From: Ilumatobacteraceae bacterium
Lineage (GTDB): Bacteria; Actinomycetota; Acidimicrobiia; Acidimicrobiales; Ilumatobacteraceae
Length of the DNA: 64,000 nt
NCBI GenBank assembly: GCA_018401375.1
Contig: JAGYKR010000001.1
Coordinates: 248,001 to 312,000 of the forward strand
Direction: 5' to 3'
Of this stretch, positions 10,065 through 29,366 are shown one piece after another. Below the pieces are notes generated by a model. The model was not told where the DNA came from. It saw only the letters and a list, made by a program, of their open reading frames with translations, and searched no databases. Every line of letters starts with the position of its first letter. Positions within the stretch are counted from its first letter, which is position 1. The translations under genes and the position numbers were made by a program.

Positions 10065-12470
10065 TCAGATATCTACTTCACCCGAGCCAGAATCTGGCGG
10101 AGCCGCCCCGGCTGGACCAGCTGCCGCCGCAGTGAAAACCTCGGGCGGATCGCTCCACACCGGCAGTGGTGTCCCGGCTTGAGCGGCGGCTAAGGCCGCC
10201 CAGATGCGCTCAGGTGTACAGGGCATGTCGAGATGGGTGATCCCGAACTCGGCGAGCGCGTCGATTACGGCGTTTTGTACCGCCGGTGTGGACCCGATCG
10301 TGGCCGCCTCTCCGATGCCCTTAGCTCCGAGAGGGTTATGCGGGCTCGGGGTCTCGGTGGAATGGGTGTGATAGGTGATCGTCTCAGCAGCCGAAACGAT
10401 GGCGTAATCGGCCAGATTGGAAGTGATCGGATTCCCGTCGGTATCGAAGCAGACCTGCTCGTATAACGCTTGACCAATCCCCGAGGCGATGCCGCCATGT
10501 TGTTGGCCTTCCACGAGCATCGGGTTGATGACGGTTCCGCAATCGTCCACGGCCACGTGGGCACAGATCGTGACCTTGCCGGTCTCGATGTCCACTTCCA
10601 CCACGCTGATGTGGGCACCGAAGGGGAAAGTGGCCTGAGGCTGAGCGAAGACAGTGTCTGCGGTCAATGATTCGCCGCCACCTTCGCGATGGGATCGGGT
10701 CACTAGATCTGACCAGGTCAGCGACATCGCCGGTACACCCGCCACGGACAATGTGCCGGTCATTGGATCGATCACCACGTCGGCGGCATCCGCTTCGAGG
10801 TAGGAGGCCGCTAACGCGCGGGCTGCCTCCACGAGTTCGGTTGTGGCCTCAGAGACCGCAGATCCCGCTAACTGCAAAGAACGTGAGCCGCCGGTACCGC
10901 CGCCGCTCGGAATCTGATCGGTGTCACCGTCCACGAGACGGATTCGGTCCATGGGAATCCCTGTCTGATCAGCGACCAACATCGCGTAGGCGGTTTGGTG
11001 GCCCTGGCCGTGGGAGGCGGTCCCAGCGAACACGGTGGCCGAACCGTCGGCATGCACCTCCACCCGGGCGTACTCGCTCATCTGGCCGCCAGCGGTGATC
11101 TCCACATAGGCCGCCACCCCGATCCCGATCCGACGGGTGTCACCCGACTCGCGGCGCAGGCGTTGACGGGCCCGCCACGTCTCATACTCGGCGATTTCCG
11201 CAGCGGTGGTGAGCGCATGGGCATAGCGGCCCGAGTCATAGGTTTGGCCGCTGTGGGTGCGAAATGGGAACTGCTCATCACGCACGAAGTTACGAATCCG
11301 GAACTCGATTGGATCGATGCCGAGTTGCCTCGCCGCCATGTCCACGATCCGTTCAATCAGCGCAGTTGCTTCTGGTCGTCCCGCCCCGCGATAGGCACCC
11401 ATCGGCGTGGTGGTGGTCACCGCCACGGCGACGTCACATCCGATCACGGGAATGTTGTAGTTACCCTGGGCCATACGTTTGGTGCCGGCGGGTAGCATCG
11501 CCCCCACCGTTGGATGGGCCCCAGCATCACCGACGAGGCGGATCCTGAGCCCGGTGATCAGGCCGTTTTCGTCGCAGCCGAGTTCCACGTATTGGATCTG
11601 GCCTCGGCTGTGCGGCATGGTCTTCATGTCCTCAGAGCGCGAGGGCACCCAGACCACTGGCCGTCCGAGCGCCCGAGCCCCAGCAGCCACGATCGCATAT
11701 TCGGGATGCAGCCCGGCCTTACCGCCAAATCCTCCGCCCACTTGAGGGGTGACCACATGGATGTCGGTGGCGGGGATCTTCAAGGCGGCAGCCATCTGGG
11801 TATGCAGCACATGCGGCATCTGGGTGGAGGCCGACACGAGCAAACGGCCATCTGGTAGCGGCGCTGCAGCACAGCTATCGGGTTCCATGGCCACCACGGC
11901 CAGACGCTGATTCTCAAACCGGCCCCGGATCACGTGCCTGCTGATGGCCTCGAGGTCCACGGGTGGATCGAGCGAGATCACAGCCTGATTGTGGCCGATC
12001 TCCGGGAAGATGATCGGGGCCCCTGGCGATAGCGCAGCGACGGGATCCACTACAGCTGGCAAAATCTCATAATCAACCCAGATCACCGCCGCGGCATCGC
12101 TCGCCGCGGTGAGGGTTTCAGCGAAGATGACGGCGATCCCTTCACCGACAAAACGCACCCGATCGGTGGCGAGCGGGCTGCGGAGAAAGTCTCCGACCTT
12201 GACGAACCCAGGATGGGCATCGATTCCGAGTTCGGCCGCAGTCCACACGGCCACCACCCCGGGAATGGATCGTGCCTCCTCGAGATGGATCTCACGAATC
12301 AGTCCGTGGGCCACATCGGAGCGCAGGATCACTGCCTGCAAGGCGGGTTCGGGATGCTCAAAATGCAGGTCAGCCACATAGCGACCATCCCCGGTCAAAA
12401 GTTCGGGATCCTCGGTGCGTATGACGCGGGTGCCCAAAATTGAACCGGGAGTCGATGTGGTTGCAGTCAT
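10065..12470 (-). CDS. Molybdopterin-binding large subunit of a xanthine dehydrogenase/CO dehydrogenase-type hydroxylase (form II-like)
   Basis: This 801-residue protein is the molybdenum-cofactor subunit of the xanthine oxidase family. It shows GGGFGGK at 245-251 and the active-site loop AYRGAGR at 359-365. That loop is the one called form II in CoxL-like proteins; true carbon monoxide dehydrogenases carry AYXCSFR. The C-terminal GIGEAA holds the likely catalytic Glu. The substrate is therefore probably an aldehyde or heterocycle rather than carbon monoxide, which is inference. No FAD subunit (coxM-like) or [2Fe-2S] subunit (coxS-like) is present in the window, which is unusual. Its ATG overlaps the stop of the MFS gene by 4 bases, so it is second in a two-gene operon. 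Confidence 0.9.
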   Translation of the reverse strand: MTATTSTPGSILGTRVIRTEDPELLTGDGRYVADLHFEHPEPALQAVILRSDVAHGLIREIHLEEARSIPGVVAVWTAAELGIDAHPGFVKVGDFLRSPLATDRVRFVGEGIAVIFAETLTAASDAAAVIWVDYEILPAVVDPVAALSPGAPIIFPEIGHNQAVISLDPPVDLEAISRHVIRGRFENQRLAVVAMEPDSCAAAPLPDGRLLVSASTQMPHVLHTQMAAALKIPATDIHVVTPQVGGGFGGKAGLHPEYAIVAAGARALGRPVVWVPSRSEDMKTMPHSRGQIQYVELGCDENGLITGLRIRLVGDAGAHPTVGAMLPAGTKRMAQGNYNIPVIGCDVAVAVTTTTPMGAYRGAGRPEATALIERIVDMAARQLGIDPIEFRIRNFVRDEQFPFRTHSGQTYDSGRYAHALTTAAEIAEYETWRARQRLRRESGDTRRIGIGVAAYVEITAGGQMSEYARVEVHADGSATVFAGTASHGQGHQTAYAMLVADQTGIPMDRIRLVDGDTDQIPSGGGTGGSRSLQLAGSAVSEATTELVEAARALAASYLEADAADVVIDPMTGTLSVAGVPAMSLTWSDLVTRSHREGGGESLTADTVFAQPQATFPFGAHISVVEVDIETGKVTICAHVAVDDCGTVINPMLVEGQQHGGIASGIGQALYEQVCFDTDGNPITSNLADYAIVSAAETITYHTHSTETPSPHNPLGAKGIGEAATIGSTPAVQNAVIDALAEFGITHLDMPCTPERIWAALAAAQAGTPLPVWSDPPEVFTAAAAGPAGAAPPDSGSGEVDI

Positions 12471-13636
12471 GAGGTTCCTTTGTTGTGCGGGGATTCCGGC
12501 AGATGCCAGATCGCCGTGACGATCGCAGCGAATCCTCCCAGTAGTAACAGTGCCCCCGAGCGAGTGGTCAAGTCGCTGAGTGCACCCATCACCGGGGAAG
12601 AGACCAAGATGCCCATTCTGGCTCCAGCGGAGAACAGCGAGACGCCTTGTGCTCCGGGAAGTAGTTCTCCAGACCGTCGCACCGAGATCGGAAACAGGGT
12701 GGATCCACCCAGGCCAGCGATCACAAATCCGAGCAAACTGACCGCTACGACGGGCCCTGTGGTGGCGATCAGGATCCCTACGGCTGCGATGAGGGCGCTC
12801 GTACGCCGCATCTGTTCGCCACCAAAACGGTCCACCACCTTGTCCCCTCCGGCGCGGCCGATGACCATCCCGAGGGTGAAGCCGATAAACCCGAGGCCTG
12901 CTGGCCCGGGGGACAGACCAAAGCGTTCGGCCATCAGCAGCGCCGCCCAGTCGGTGGCCGGGATTTCAATCAGCACGGTCAAGATGCCGATCCCGAACAC
13001 GGCCAACCAGATGCGACCTCGGGCACCGGAACTGCGCGGGATCAGGTGATGATCAGGGATGTGGCGGGCTTCGGGGATGAGTCGGGTGCCAGCGGTGACA
13101 GTGGCGGCGATCAAGATCACCGAGGTCACTGTGAGTTGGGTGCCGAGACTGATCTGAAAGGTGGCGGCCAGACTGGACCCGATCCCCCCGGTCAATGTGC
13201 CGATGGACCAGATTGCATGCATCCGATTGATGACTGAGCGGTGCAGGGAATCTTGGAACTGCAGGGCCTGGGTGTTCATGGCGACATCGGTCAAACCGTC
13301 CATGATCCCGATGCCGATGAGCACGAGGAACAAGATCGCCGCCACCGGAGCAACCGCGATGAGGGGCAGCATCGCAGCGAGGGTGACGGAGGTAACGATG
13401 GTGGCGCGTCGCGATCCGATCCGGTTAATGATCCGGCTCCCGGCCAGACTCATGAGCACCCCGCCACACCCACTGCCGAGCAAGGTCAGGCCGAGGGCCG
13501 TGTCACTCAGGCTGAGATTCTCTCTGATTTCACCGAGTCGTGGAATCCAGGACGCGAACGAAGCACCGTTGGCGAAGAAGAAGGTCCCGATCGCAAGTGC
13601 TCGGACTCGGTCTGTTGGTCTAGTCTGGGTGGCCAT
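12467..13636 (-). CDS. MFS transporter
   Basis: This 389-residue membrane protein has about 12 predicted hydrophobic segments and the loop GSRIINRIGSRRA after the second of them, typical of the major facilitator superfamily. It resembles MFS members of the YbjJ type. It is translationally coupled to the following molybdenum-hydroxylase large subunit through a 4-base overlap, so it may import the substrate of that enzyme or export its product; this is inference. Its start codon at 13636 overlaps, in the opposite direction, the start codon of the ArsC-family gene at 13635, so each leader lies inside the other gene. A later start cannot be excluded. Confidence 0.85.
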   Translation of the reverse strand: MATQTRPTDRVRALAIGTFFFANGASFASWIPRLGEIRENLSLSDTALGLTLLGSGCGGVLMSLAGSRIINRIGSRRATIVTSVTLAAMLPLIAVAPVAAILFLVLIGIGIMDGLTDVAMNTQALQFQDSLHRSVINRMHAIWSIGTLTGGIGSSLAATFQISLGTQLTVTSVILIAATVTAGTRLIPEARHIPDHHLIPRSSGARGRIWLAVFGIGILTVLIEIPATDWAALLMAERFGLSPGPAGLGFIGFTLGMVIGRAGGDKVVDRFGGEQMRRTSALIAAVGILIATTGPVVAVSLLGFVIAGLGGSTLFPISVRRSGELLPGAQGVSLFSAGARMGILVSSPVMGALSDLTTRSGALLLLGGFAAIVTAIWHLPESPHNKGTS

Positions 13637-13991
13637 GAGTGCAGTGAGGATCTATCACAACCAGCATTGAAATTCTTCGGTCAATGCCGTGCGCATTGCA
13701 GAGGAACTGGGAGTGGACCACGAGGTGATCTTGTACATCAAGACTCCGCCTGACGCAGACACCGTTCGTGAGATCATCTCCAAACTGGAAGATCCCCCCA
13801 CCGATTTGGTTCGGCGGGACAGTACTTGGAAAAAACTTGGTCTCACAGAAGATGACGCCCAGAGTGTGGATCAGATCGTGGAGTTATTAGTGCGCCACAA
13901 GACGTTGTTACAACGTCCGATTGTTGTCACTGATACTGCAGCGATCGTGGGGCGCCCCAAAGAACGCATTCGCGAACTTCTGTCTCGCTGA
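13635..13991 (+). CDS. ArsC-family thioredoxin-fold selenoprotein (Sec at residue 12, encoded by TGA)
   Basis: Read through the TGA at 13668-13670, this frame gives a 118-residue ArsC/YffB-type protein of normal family length. The start reads MSAVRIYHNQH, then TGA, then NSSVNAV. ArsC proteins have IYHNPxC at this place, so the TGA is exactly at the catalytic cysteine. The rest is intact: LVRR near residue 57, RPIVVT near 95 and GRPKER near 108 supply the three arginines that bind the oxyanion in ArsC. A stem-loop at 13682-13698 has the position and loop expected of a bacterial SECIS element. Selenocysteine explains all of this better than a nonsense mutation. Without recoding, only the part from the GTG at 13689 would be called and the active site lost. 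The substrate may be arsenate or another thiol/disulfide partner. Confidence 0.85.
13668..13698 (+). promoter_or_regulatory. UGA codon and SECIS-like stem-loop of the ArsC-family gene
   Basis: The TGA occupies 13668-13670. The 17-base hairpin CAATGC-CGTGC-GCATTG covers 13682-13698: six perfect pairs with a 5-base loop CGUGC. The stem starts at +12 and the first loop G is at +19 after the UGA. Bacterial SECIS elements are known to lie within the coding region just after UGA, with a G-U in the apical loop about 16-37 bases downstream. The second selenoprotein gene in this window has a stem-loop with the same start position and loop core. Confidence 0.8.
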
Positions 13992-14786
13992 TCAGCGTTC
14001 GAAGACGAGCACAAACTCGAGCTTCCCTTCGTCCTCCACGGCAATCCCGCTGATCGATGGGTTAGCGATCAGATAGTCGGCGAACAGGATCGAAATCTCT
14101 CCGAGGACTCCAATCCGAGTGTCGGAATGCTGGGCGGTGACCTCAAATGTGACCGGCCGGGTCTCCCCGCGCAGGGTCAACTCCCCGACGGCGGTGGCGG
14201 TGATCTGTTCCCCGGCCGTGGGGAGCGAGCCGAGTTCGATGGGAGCGGTCAGTTCAAAACGCGCCGTTGGGAACTCGGCGGTGTTCATGATTCGGCCTCG
14301 AAATTGTCCATCGCGGCGACTGTCGTCGGAGCGGATAGAGGCCACTTCCACCTCAAATGACGCAGTCGTGATCGCAGTTTGTGTGATGACGAGTTCGCCG
14401 GCGATCTGGTTGGTGCGTCCGACGCCTTGAGTCACGACACCAAAAAGCACCTCGTCTACCCGGTAGCCGAGTTCGGAATCCTCGGTGGCTCGCCACCTGC
14501 CCTCAAGACCGACGGGCAACGTAGTGGTCGGTGCGGCCACCACGGTTGTGACAGATGCGGTGTCGTTGGCGCTGGTGGTGGCCGTCACCGCCTGATTGAG
14601 ATCGGCGGTGGTCAAGGCGGCTTCCGGGTCGTTAATGAAGTTCGCATAGACAAAGATCGCCCCGTAGCCGAGCACCACGACGCCCACCACAGCGATGATG
14701 ATTTTGATGAGTCGGGAGCGGAACGGGCCCGAACGGTCCGGAGTTATGGGTTCAGGAGTCAAACTCTGTGTGGGGTCCATGGCCAT
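13992..14786 (-). CDS. YceI family protein with N-terminal membrane anchor
   Basis: This 264-residue protein has a cytoplasmic N-terminus of about 27 residues, one transmembrane helix (IIIAVVGVVVLGYGAIFVYA, about 29-48), a Thr/Ala-rich linker to about residue 95, and a C-terminal YceI-like lipocalin domain. The domain shows the expected pattern around SDDSRRDGQFRGRIMNTAEFPTARFELT and GELTLRGETRPVTFEV. YceI domains bind isoprenoid or other lipophilic ligands in a beta-barrel. Here it would face the outside of the cell. The stop lies directly against the stop of the ArsC-family gene (13991/13992), so the two are convergent with no gap. Confidence 0.85.
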   Translation of the reverse strand: MAMDPTQSLTPEPITPDRSGPFRSRLIKIIIAVVGVVVLGYGAIFVYANFINDPEAALTTADLNQAVTATTSANDTASVTTVVAAPTTTLPVGLEGRWRATEDSELGYRVDEVLFGVVTQGVGRTNQIAGELVITQTAITTASFEVEVASIRSDDSRRDGQFRGRIMNTAEFPTARFELTAPIELGSLPTAGEQITATAVGELTLRGETRPVTFEVTAQHSDTRIGVLGEISILFADYLIANPSISGIAVEDEGKLEFVLVFER

Positions 14787-26913: not shown

Positions 26914-29366
26914 GACGCGGTCCTCGGATCGAGCGGCCAATGATGCTTCGGGTAGCGCCCCGCCATTTCCTTGCGGACCTCGGCCCAACTGCCGGACCAA
27001 AAGCCGGGCAGATCAGCAGTGATCTGGACCGGACGATCCGCCGGTGACAGCAGATGAATGCTGATCGGGACGCCCGCCACTACCGGATGGGTGGTCACCC
27101 CGAAGAGGTCTTGGACGCGGGCTCGCAGATGCGGCGGTTCAGTGGAGTAGTCAATCGGTGCTGATCGTCGCCCGAGATTCCAGGTAGCGGGAGCGAGGTC
27201 ATCAAGTTCGGCGCCGACTTCCCAGGGTAAACCCGAACGCAGAACCATCACGAGATCAACAGATTCGATTTCGCTGCGGCGAGTGATACCGATCAGGTAC
27301 GGGGCGAGCCAGTTTTCTAGATCTTTGAGCAATGCTGGCATTGACCAGTCCGGCCAGGGATCGCCCACATGCCGATGCATGAACTCCACTCGGGCCCGCA
27401 GGCTGAGTGCCGCTTCGCTCCAATCAAGCGCCGCACCACCGGTGGATCGGATCCGTTGCAGCCAGCGTTCGGTGACGGCCTCGCTCGGGGCAGGGGGACC
27501 CTGCCGGGTGCCGAGGCGCATCGATCCGAGGCGGCGCTCGGTTTGTTCCACGAGGTCGTCAAGGTCACGGTCCCAGGTCAGCGTGCGGGTCACGTCGATC
27601 TGATCGCCGAAGCGGGCGATCACTTCATCCACGCTGATCGCTGCTGCGAGTCGGATCCGGGCTCGATCCCGTTTACCGTCCAGAGTGGCCGCCACGATGA
27701 ACTCCTCGGTGGCGAGCGGATCGGTGTCGTCCATCATCGCTGCAGACCCGGTGCGCATCTGAAACTGTCCGGGTCGGCGTCGGGCTGCGAGCCGGTCCGG
27801 GTAGGCCTCAAGCAGCACCGACCCGGCCTGCTCCGGGTTCACATCGGAGAGGTCAAAAGAGATCCGTGCCCGTTGGGCGATCTCTTGGGCCTGGCGCATA
27901 AGGCGCGCTGCGAGACCGGTGTCCATGCCCTCATGGCGCAGACCGTGGGCGAGGATCTGGAGCCGTAGCCCAAGGTCACTTGAGGGGTGTGATGTGCTGC
28001 GCAACAGGTCGCGTTCCTCGATGATTGCCGCCATGACGCAGGCCAAGGATCCGGGGTGCGCAGCGATCATCCGGGCGAGCCGGGGATGCACGGGCAGACC
28101 GAGCATCTCTTCGCCGATCGGGCTCAACTGTAAACCGGGCCCGGGCATCAGCGCGCCGAGGTCTCCTAAGAGGTCTCTTGCGGCGCGCACCGCTTTGGCT
28201 GGTGGTGGATCAATCCAGGTCAAGTCTTCGATCGATGTTCCCCAGGCAGCGATCTCCAGCATCAGGCCTGCCAGATCGGTTTCGGTGATCTCGGGGCTCG
28301 GATAGGCACTGCGGCTGCCGTGTTCGATTTTGGACCACAACCGGTAGCAGGATCCGGGCGCCACACGGCCGGCCCGCCCGGCGCGTTGTTCGGCAGAAGA
28401 CCGCGAGGTGGTCACCGTGGTCAAACGGCTCATCCCGGTCCCGGTGTCGAATCTCGGCGCCCGCGCCAGACCCGAATCCACGACGATCCGCACCCCTTCT
28501 ACGGTAAGGGAGGTTTCGGCGATATCGGTGGCGAGGACCACCCGGCGCCGACCCGGCGCTGATCCTTCCAGCGCCTGATCTTGTTCGGCGAGGCTGAGCG
28601 CCCCTGCCAGACCGAAGACGTCCACGTTGTCGGGAAGTACCTGGCGCAGAAGTTCTTGCACCCTGCGGATCTCACCGATCCCGGGGAGAAACACCAAGAG
28701 GTCGCCGCCGTCGGGTCCGGAATCACGCAAGGCCGTTTGCACCGCAGCCACGACCGCCGGCTCGAGGCGCTGATTGCGTTGACGTGGGAGCCAGTTCATT
28801 TCCACGGGGTGGCTTCGACCCTCGCTGATCAGCACCGGAGCCGCCACACCCTCAACAGCCAAGATCTCGGGGAGACGTTTGTGATCAGCAGTGGCGGACA
28901 TGGCGATGATGCGCAGGTCTGGTCGCAGTGCAGCGGCGGCATCGAGGGTGAATGCCAAACCCAGATCGGTGGGCAGGTTGCGTTCGTGGATCTCATCAAA
29001 GATCACCGCCGCGATGCCGGTGAGAGCCGGATCATTTTGGATCCGGCGGGTCAGCACCCCTTCGGTGACTACTTCGATTTCGGTGTCAGGTCCGATCCGG
29101 CGTTCCTCACGGGTCTGATAGCCAACGATGCCACCGACCTGATCGCCAAGGAGTTCAGCCATCCGACGTGCAGCGGCCCGGGTGGCGAGACGGCGCGGCT
29201 CGAGCATCACAATCCGCCCGCCGTTACGCCATGGTGCACTTCGTAAGGCGAGCGGTACCAGAGTGGTTTTACCGGCTCCCGGAGGGGCGATGATCACCGC
29301 TCGGGGATGGTGGATCAAACTGGCCGTGATCTGATCAAGGATCTGATCGATCGGCAGTTCAGGCAC
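26910..29366 (-). CDS. hrpB: ATP-dependent helicase HrpB
   Basis: The 818-residue DEAH-box helicase shows GPPGAGKTTLVPLAL-type Walker A (APPGAGKTT near residue 28), the DEIHERNL box near 125, SATADH near 156, and QRAGRAGRVAPGSCYRLW near 330, followed by the HA2 and HrpB C-terminal domains (motif PLDPRTA at the end). HrpB is thought to act on RNA but its cellular job is unclear. The C-terminal GFWSGSWAEVRKEMAGRYPKHHWP is typical. It precedes the TauE/SafE gene with a 4-base overlap. Confidence 0.94.
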   Translation of the reverse strand: MPELPIDQILDQITASLIHHPRAVIIAPPGAGKTTLVPLALRSAPWRNGGRIVMLEPRRLATRAAARRMAELLGDQVGGIVGYQTREERRIGPDTEIEVVTEGVLTRRIQNDPALTGIAAVIFDEIHERNLPTDLGLAFTLDAAAALRPDLRIIAMSATADHKRLPEILAVEGVAAPVLISEGRSHPVEMNWLPRQRNQRLEPAVVAAVQTALRDSGPDGGDLLVFLPGIGEIRRVQELLRQVLPDNVDVFGLAGALSLAEQDQALEGSAPGRRRVVLATDIAETSLTVEGVRIVVDSGLARAPRFDTGTGMSRLTTVTTSRSSAEQRAGRAGRVAPGSCYRLWSKIEHGSRSAYPSPEITETDLAGLMLEIAAWGTSIEDLTWIDPPPAKAVRAARDLLGDLGALMPGPGLQLSPIGEEMLGLPVHPRLARMIAAHPGSLACVMAAIIEERDLLRSTSHPSSDLGLRLQILAHGLRHEGMDTGLAARLMRQAQEIAQRARISFDLSDVNPEQAGSVLLEAYPDRLAARRRPGQFQMRTGSAAMMDDTDPLATEEFIVAATLDGKRDRARIRLAAAISVDEVIARFGDQIDVTRTLTWDRDLDDLVEQTERRLGSMRLGTRQGPPAPSEAVTERWLQRIRSTGGAALDWSEAALSLRARVEFMHRHVGDPWPDWSMPALLKDLENWLAPYLIGITRRSEIESVDLVMVLRSGLPWEVGAELDDLAPATWNLGRRSAPIDYSTEPPHLRARVQDLFGVTTHPVVAGVPISIHLLSPADRPVQITADLPGFWSGSWAEVRKEMAGRYPKHHWPLDPRTAS

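Follow-up and report, generated by a model that had tools for sequence, protein, structure and literature searches.

Selenocysteine (Sec)-containing members of the ArsC family have been recognized for two decades. The Sargasso Sea survey of 2005 placed a UXXS arsenate reductase among its new selenoprotein families, with 14 sequences and a predicted SECIS (PMC1088965), and the GOS survey of 2008 recorded 77 sequences of UxxS type under the name 'ArsC 1' (PMC2398784). A 2022 review lists the UxxS arsenate reductase selenoprotein (PMC9312934), and a 2026 review gives TIGR00014 UxxS with MBT3519430.1 as the example (PMC13188914). The survey passages that describe these proteins present metagenome sequences and name no Actinobacteria host. 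In the window (the whole 64,000-nucleotide stretch of DNA analyzed here), a gene from an Ilumatobacteraceae genome matches them, as far as those passages describe them, in family (COG1393 / TIGR00014), Sec position, UxxS motif and a SECIS after the UGA. It is thus a further member of a known family. The first-pass annotation is supported in its Sec mechanism, and its novelty falls away because the UxxS form has been known since 2005 (PMC1088965). Among open-licence papers, none was found that links this selenoprotein to Acidimicrobiia or Ilumatobacter. What is new is that the Sec form is nearly fixed in Ilumatobacteraceae and other Acidimicrobiales, that its putative SECIS is near-invariant and lost in Cys forms, and that U is strongly favoured immediately before the UGA.

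Three other described groups were compared with the window protein. Glutaredoxin (Grx)-dependent ArsC (plasmid R773; PDB 1I9D, 1JZW; TIGR00014) aligns with it over the full length and shares His8, the nucleophile at position 12 and Arg60/94/107. Unlike R773 ArsC, the window protein has Sec for Cys, no ars operon, a C terminus about 20 residues shorter and a sub-equivalog score, and its lineage probably uses mycothiol rather than the glutathione of the R773-type setting. The arsenate reductase-like selenoprotein NF041106 also belongs to the ArsC superfamily but carries UxxC, and its profile gave no match to the window protein. Similarity to the Spx/MgsR regulators (TIGR01617) is weaker (56 bits); ArsC matches better, and all ArsC active-site arginines are present.

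An ArsC-family frame with TGA at the catalytic column

With TGA read as U, the frame extends from an ATG start to a terminal TGA stop and contains a single internal TGA, at codon 12 (MSAVRIYHNQHU, NSSVNAVRIAEELG...LVRRDS...LQRPIVVTD...VGRPKERIRELLSR; in pieces, MSAVRIYHNQH-U-NSSVNAVRIAEELG... through ...GRPKERIRELLSR). Homologues at 62–75% identity start at the same Met. The protein scored 54 bits against Pfam ArsC (PF03960) and 87.4 bits over the full length of TIGR00014, which lies under the curated equivalog cut-off of 106.05 bits. Phmmer comparison with solved arsenate reductases gave 3rdw as the best match (E 8.7e-19) and 1jzw at E 3.4e-16, and codon 12 aligned with their catalytic Cys. 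Arg60, Arg94, Arg107 and His8 match positions in solved ArsC and are invariant in an 18-protein homologue alignment. The predicted fold is settled by these alignments. The motif reads U12-N13-S14-S15, so that the combination typical of the UxxS family, an ArsC domain with a catalytic Sec followed three positions later by Ser, is present, and neither the window protein nor any of 64 Sec homologues has a cysteine elsewhere. The first-pass annotation had described one in-frame TGA on the catalytic Cys column, an otherwise intact frame of normal length and a GTG-started fragment as the product of ordinary gene calling; all of this was borne out, the fragment being devoid of the active site (Table 1).

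Table 1 Features of the Sec-arsC locus and of one draft contig discussed in the text.
Feature	Position	Strand	Basis or remark
Sec-containing ArsC-family gene, 118 residues	13635..13991	+	Frame, PF03960, TIGR00014, phmmer, shared Met start
TGA codon 12, read as Sec12, catalytic Cys column	13668..13670	+	TGA in 75/80, TGC/TGT in 5 homologues
Codon preceding the Sec TGA	13665-13667	+	T-ending bias; L061-L139 homologues compared
Putative apical SECIS stem-loop, CAATGC - CGTGC - GCATTG	13682..13698	+	6 bp, 5-nt loop, G at loop position 2; conservation with TGA
Lower helix, 13673-13678 with 13701-13706	13673..13706	+	Beneath apical stem; folds in window, less conserved
Codons of arginines matching R60, R94, R107 (R773-type ArsC)	13812-13814, 13914-13916, 13953-13955	+	Invariant, 18-protein alignment
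100-residue GTG ORF from ordinary gene calling	13689..13991	+	GTG inside hairpin; active site absent
MFS transporter gene, divergent	12467..13636	-	Start codon shares two bases with arsC start (CATG, 13634-13637)
YceI-domain protein, convergent	13992..14786	-	Ends one base past arsC stop
Scrambled EF-Tu gene	L017 8175-9336 (G000:C3:68174-69335)		Intact ends, scrambled middle

Alignment at the codon-12 column, which the first-pass annotation had proposed as a check, found TGA in 75 of the best 80 homologues in the public genome collection and TGC or TGT in the other five, placing the in-frame UGA where homologues have Cys. Among 60 relatives from this family and order, close homologues have TGA at this codon in 18 genomes (19/61 counting the window's own) and TGC/TGT in some others. 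The homologues from the public collection include that of the isolate Ilumatobacter nonamiensis YM16-303, which has the TGA, together with bins labelled Verrucomicrobiota and Acidobacteriota, single labels of which may be wrong. One relative (G058) flagged with a TGA was rejected as a Sec form, as it has an ordinary Cys and simply terminates at the flagged TGA. Plasmid records held just distant Cys-type ArsC annotations.

Selection is purifying both upstream of the TGA (pN 0.21 vs pS 0.54) and downstream of the hairpin (pN 0.23 vs pS 0.67), and synonymous change is lowest across the hairpin itself (pS 0.37). The first-pass view that a nonsense mutation is unlikely agrees with a TGA shared by dozens of genomes, a hairpin kept with it and purifying selection on both sides. 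On this comparative evidence the window TGA is a recoding site, and neither a nonsense mutation nor a sequencing error can explain it in general.

The downstream hairpin and the base before the TGA

A SECIS-like hairpin had been predicted after the TGA, and its apical stem begins 14 nt past the first base of that codon. All six apical pairs are present in 57 of 65 TGA genes (window included) and in none of five Cys genes, a count from which the Verrucomicrobiota forms were left out. The remaining 8 of the 65 form a more distant group in which the exact stem is absent and other sequence lies downstream of the TGA. An alignment of 55 TGA genes from the group shows 100% of apical cells paired; the stem variants CAGTGC and TAATGC keep pairing via G-U, and the five-base loop is CGTGC or CGTGA, with G at position 2. 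The lower helix is paired in 74% of cells across the group, and its covariation is no higher than in controls.

The codons AAT and ATT are fixed within the stem although these synonymous choices are rare elsewhere in the same genes, and they are relaxed in Cys genes. When the window sequence is recoded synonymously, about 1% of the variants preserve the apical stem. The folding energy itself is unremarkable: positions 13668-13711 fold at -12.6 kcal/mol (z -1.3), and 19 of 200 shuffles were equally good. No covariation above controls was detected in the hairpin among the aligned TGA genes, and this statistic is uninformative because the stem hardly varies. The evidence for a SECIS is therefore conservation tied to the TGA rather than folding energy: a SECIS-type hairpin is predicted close to the UGA, conserved with it and carrying G early in its loop (CGUGC).

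Searching with a covariance model in the same genome and 20 relatives revealed no convincing further copy, the matches up to E 0.003 being the arsC genes themselves; the element is thus gene-specific. In the window, a weak match to the stem (CAATGCC.GCATTGC, 27328-27346, minus strand, E 3.8) has a two-base loop and was taken as chance. In a coding-potential scan of TGA-joined frames in the window, all cases other than the one at 13668 seemed to be normal gene ends or frames that do not code.

Of 64 TGA genes, 60 have T as the base immediately before that codon. Where the preceding codon encodes His, it is CAT in 34 of 34 cases, whereas elsewhere in the same genes His is CAC in 139 of 150; in Cys genes the base at that position is C in four of five. 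This bias looks like a 5' context requirement, and it may act through competition with release factors or through decoding by SelB.

Selenocysteine machinery and alternative readings of the TGA

The window's genome is a 2.2-Mb draft in 47 contigs, 90% complete. The first-pass annotation had pointed to the sel genes of the same genome, and these were recovered in part: a tRNA-Sec (selC) with UCA anticodon (66.8 bits) and selD (318 bits) are both present, while a genome search of the draft did not find selA and returned no selB over the cut-off. It had named a complete genome lacking selB and selC as contrary evidence; that is not what we observed, since this draft is incomplete and does contain selC. 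In relatives, the coordinates of selA and selB make them neighbours, so a single gap would remove both. Moreover, in the EF-Tu gene on draft contig C3 the N-terminal and C-terminal parts are intact but the sequence that joins them is nonsense. EF-Tu is essential in any bacterium. This scrambling is an assembly consensus fault and cautions against arguments from absence in this draft. Given the incompleteness of the draft, the scrambled EF-Tu and the adjacency of selA and selB, the missing pair is weak evidence.

The relatives tie the TGA to the machinery. In each of the 18 TGA-bearing relatives selA and selB both score over the cut-off, and none of 18 selA-lacking relatives has the TGA form (Fisher p 4e-4, without phylogenetic correction). 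One relative, G009, lacks selA, selB and tRNA-Sec and has TGC at codon 12; its genus mate G032 has both TGA and machinery. In two relatives, acr3 lies within about 3–6 kb of the selB-selA pair with arsC elsewhere (G018:C1:758740-767898 and G025:C40:7796-14256), which may be chance.

Three accounts dispense with Sec at this codon. That the TGA is a nonsense mutation or a sequencing or assembly error in an ordinary Cys ArsC gene might draw on the state of the draft, in which EF-Tu at least is scrambled and selA and selB are missing; we give it next to no credence, because the same TGA recurs in dozens of independently assembled genomes, the hairpin is retained in TGA genes alone and both flanks of the codon are under purifying selection. 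Reading of the TGA as Trp or another residue, through a reassigned code or a suppressor tRNA, seems equally far-fetched. The frame would indeed be open under any code that gives TGA a sense, but the same gene stops at TGA, other same-frame TGA junctions flagged in the window resemble normal gene ends or frames that do not code, close homologues without the TGA always have Cys there, and the genome has a canonical tRNA-Sec.

A real gene in a species that has lost Sec insertion, so that the locus is now a recent pseudogene or yields a truncated protein from the GTG, is very improbable. This account would explain why selA and selB were not found, and the machinery has been lost in some relatives such as G009. 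However, the genome retains intact tRNA-Sec and selD genes, the gene has a perfect hairpin and its frame is undamaged from codon 13 onward; machinery-less G009 has TGC, not TGA, no other selA-lacking genome has the TGA form, and the draft is without a proper EF-Tu as well. Judging from these comparisons, the gene very probably encodes a thioredoxin-fold ArsC-family selenoprotein whose UGA codon 12 is read as Sec through the downstream hairpin and SelB.

Predicted mechanism, substrate and distribution

The Sec/Cys column, the SECIS, the arginine pocket, tRNA-Sec and selD in this genome and selA and selB in relatives are read from the sequence, whereas SelB-dependent insertion we infer. Translation would start at the ATG, the hairpin would recruit SelB with Sec-tRNA(Sec) at UGA codon 12, and selenocysteine would be inserted; where insertion fails, an 11-residue peptide would result, and the same gene would terminate at its ordinary UGA stop. 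Sec12 would then be the nucleophile in a pocket of His8, Arg60, Arg94 and Arg107, and its selenolate may attack arsenate or another oxidized substrate. Since the protein has no other cysteine, the oxidized selenium would need an outside thiol for its resolution, possibly mycothiol with mycoredoxin, or thioredoxin. An MshC-like gene in the genome (410 bits, below its cut-off of 485) makes mycothiol plausible, though unproven.

It is the family name alone that suggests arsenate as the substrate. A selenoprotein that is not an arsenate reductase, acting instead as a general selenol-dependent reductase with mycothiol or thioredoxin, competes with the arsenate reading only, and we regard it as a substantial possibility, if a little short of even. 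No ars genes lie beside the window arsC, nor is it linked to arsenite efflux or arsR; Acr3 is absent from the draft genome, and those TGA genomes which do encode it show no linkage between it and Sec-arsC. The absence of any widely conserved neighbour among 80 loci, the score under the TIGR00014 cut-off and the MshC-like gene, even if below its own cut-off, point the same way. Against this stands the invariance of all catalytic residues of Grx-dependent ArsC (Cys/Sec12, His8 and arginines 60, 94 and 107), including the three oxyanion-binding arginines.

Owing to the overlap of the MFS and arsC starts, each promoter must lie inside the coding sequence of the opposite gene unless one of the two starts is wrongly assigned. 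L061, L111 and L118 likewise have a divergent MFS gene in this position (3 of 80 loci), and a YceI homologue occurs near arsC at 12 of 80. Other neighbours in the window are a xanthine-dehydrogenase-type subunit and a PCu(A)C protein.

In a 117-column tree of limited resolution, Cys forms are scattered among Sec forms with five state changes, for which several Sec-to-Cys conversions accompanied by hairpin loss would be the parsimonious reading. The window protein groups with that of an Ilumatobacteraceae bin (L061). Sec forms from Verrucomicrobiota bins (L125, L126, L129-L131, L133, L134, L137, L138 and L140), which have YHF or YHY followed by U-G-S-S, group with an Acidimicrobiales subgroup, and the tree makes transfer of Sec-arsC between these phyla probable.

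We tentatively propose, as a possible if somewhat doubtful picture, that Ilumatobacteraceae and other Acidimicrobiales share a conserved house-keeping selenoprotein outside arsenic resistance: a one-selenol reductase with no resolving cysteine, recharged by mycothiol and encoded with a near-invariant 17-nt SECIS and an additional requirement for U before the UGA. Standard gene calling loses such selenoprotein genes, since the ORF it reports is without the active site. A family known mainly from marine metagenomes now has a host lineage that can be identified and that includes at least one sequenced isolate, I. nonamiensis YM16-303 (locus L063), so that substrate and reductant become testable, and the natural Cys versions with eroded SECIS offer a clean comparison for the benefit of selenium to the enzyme.
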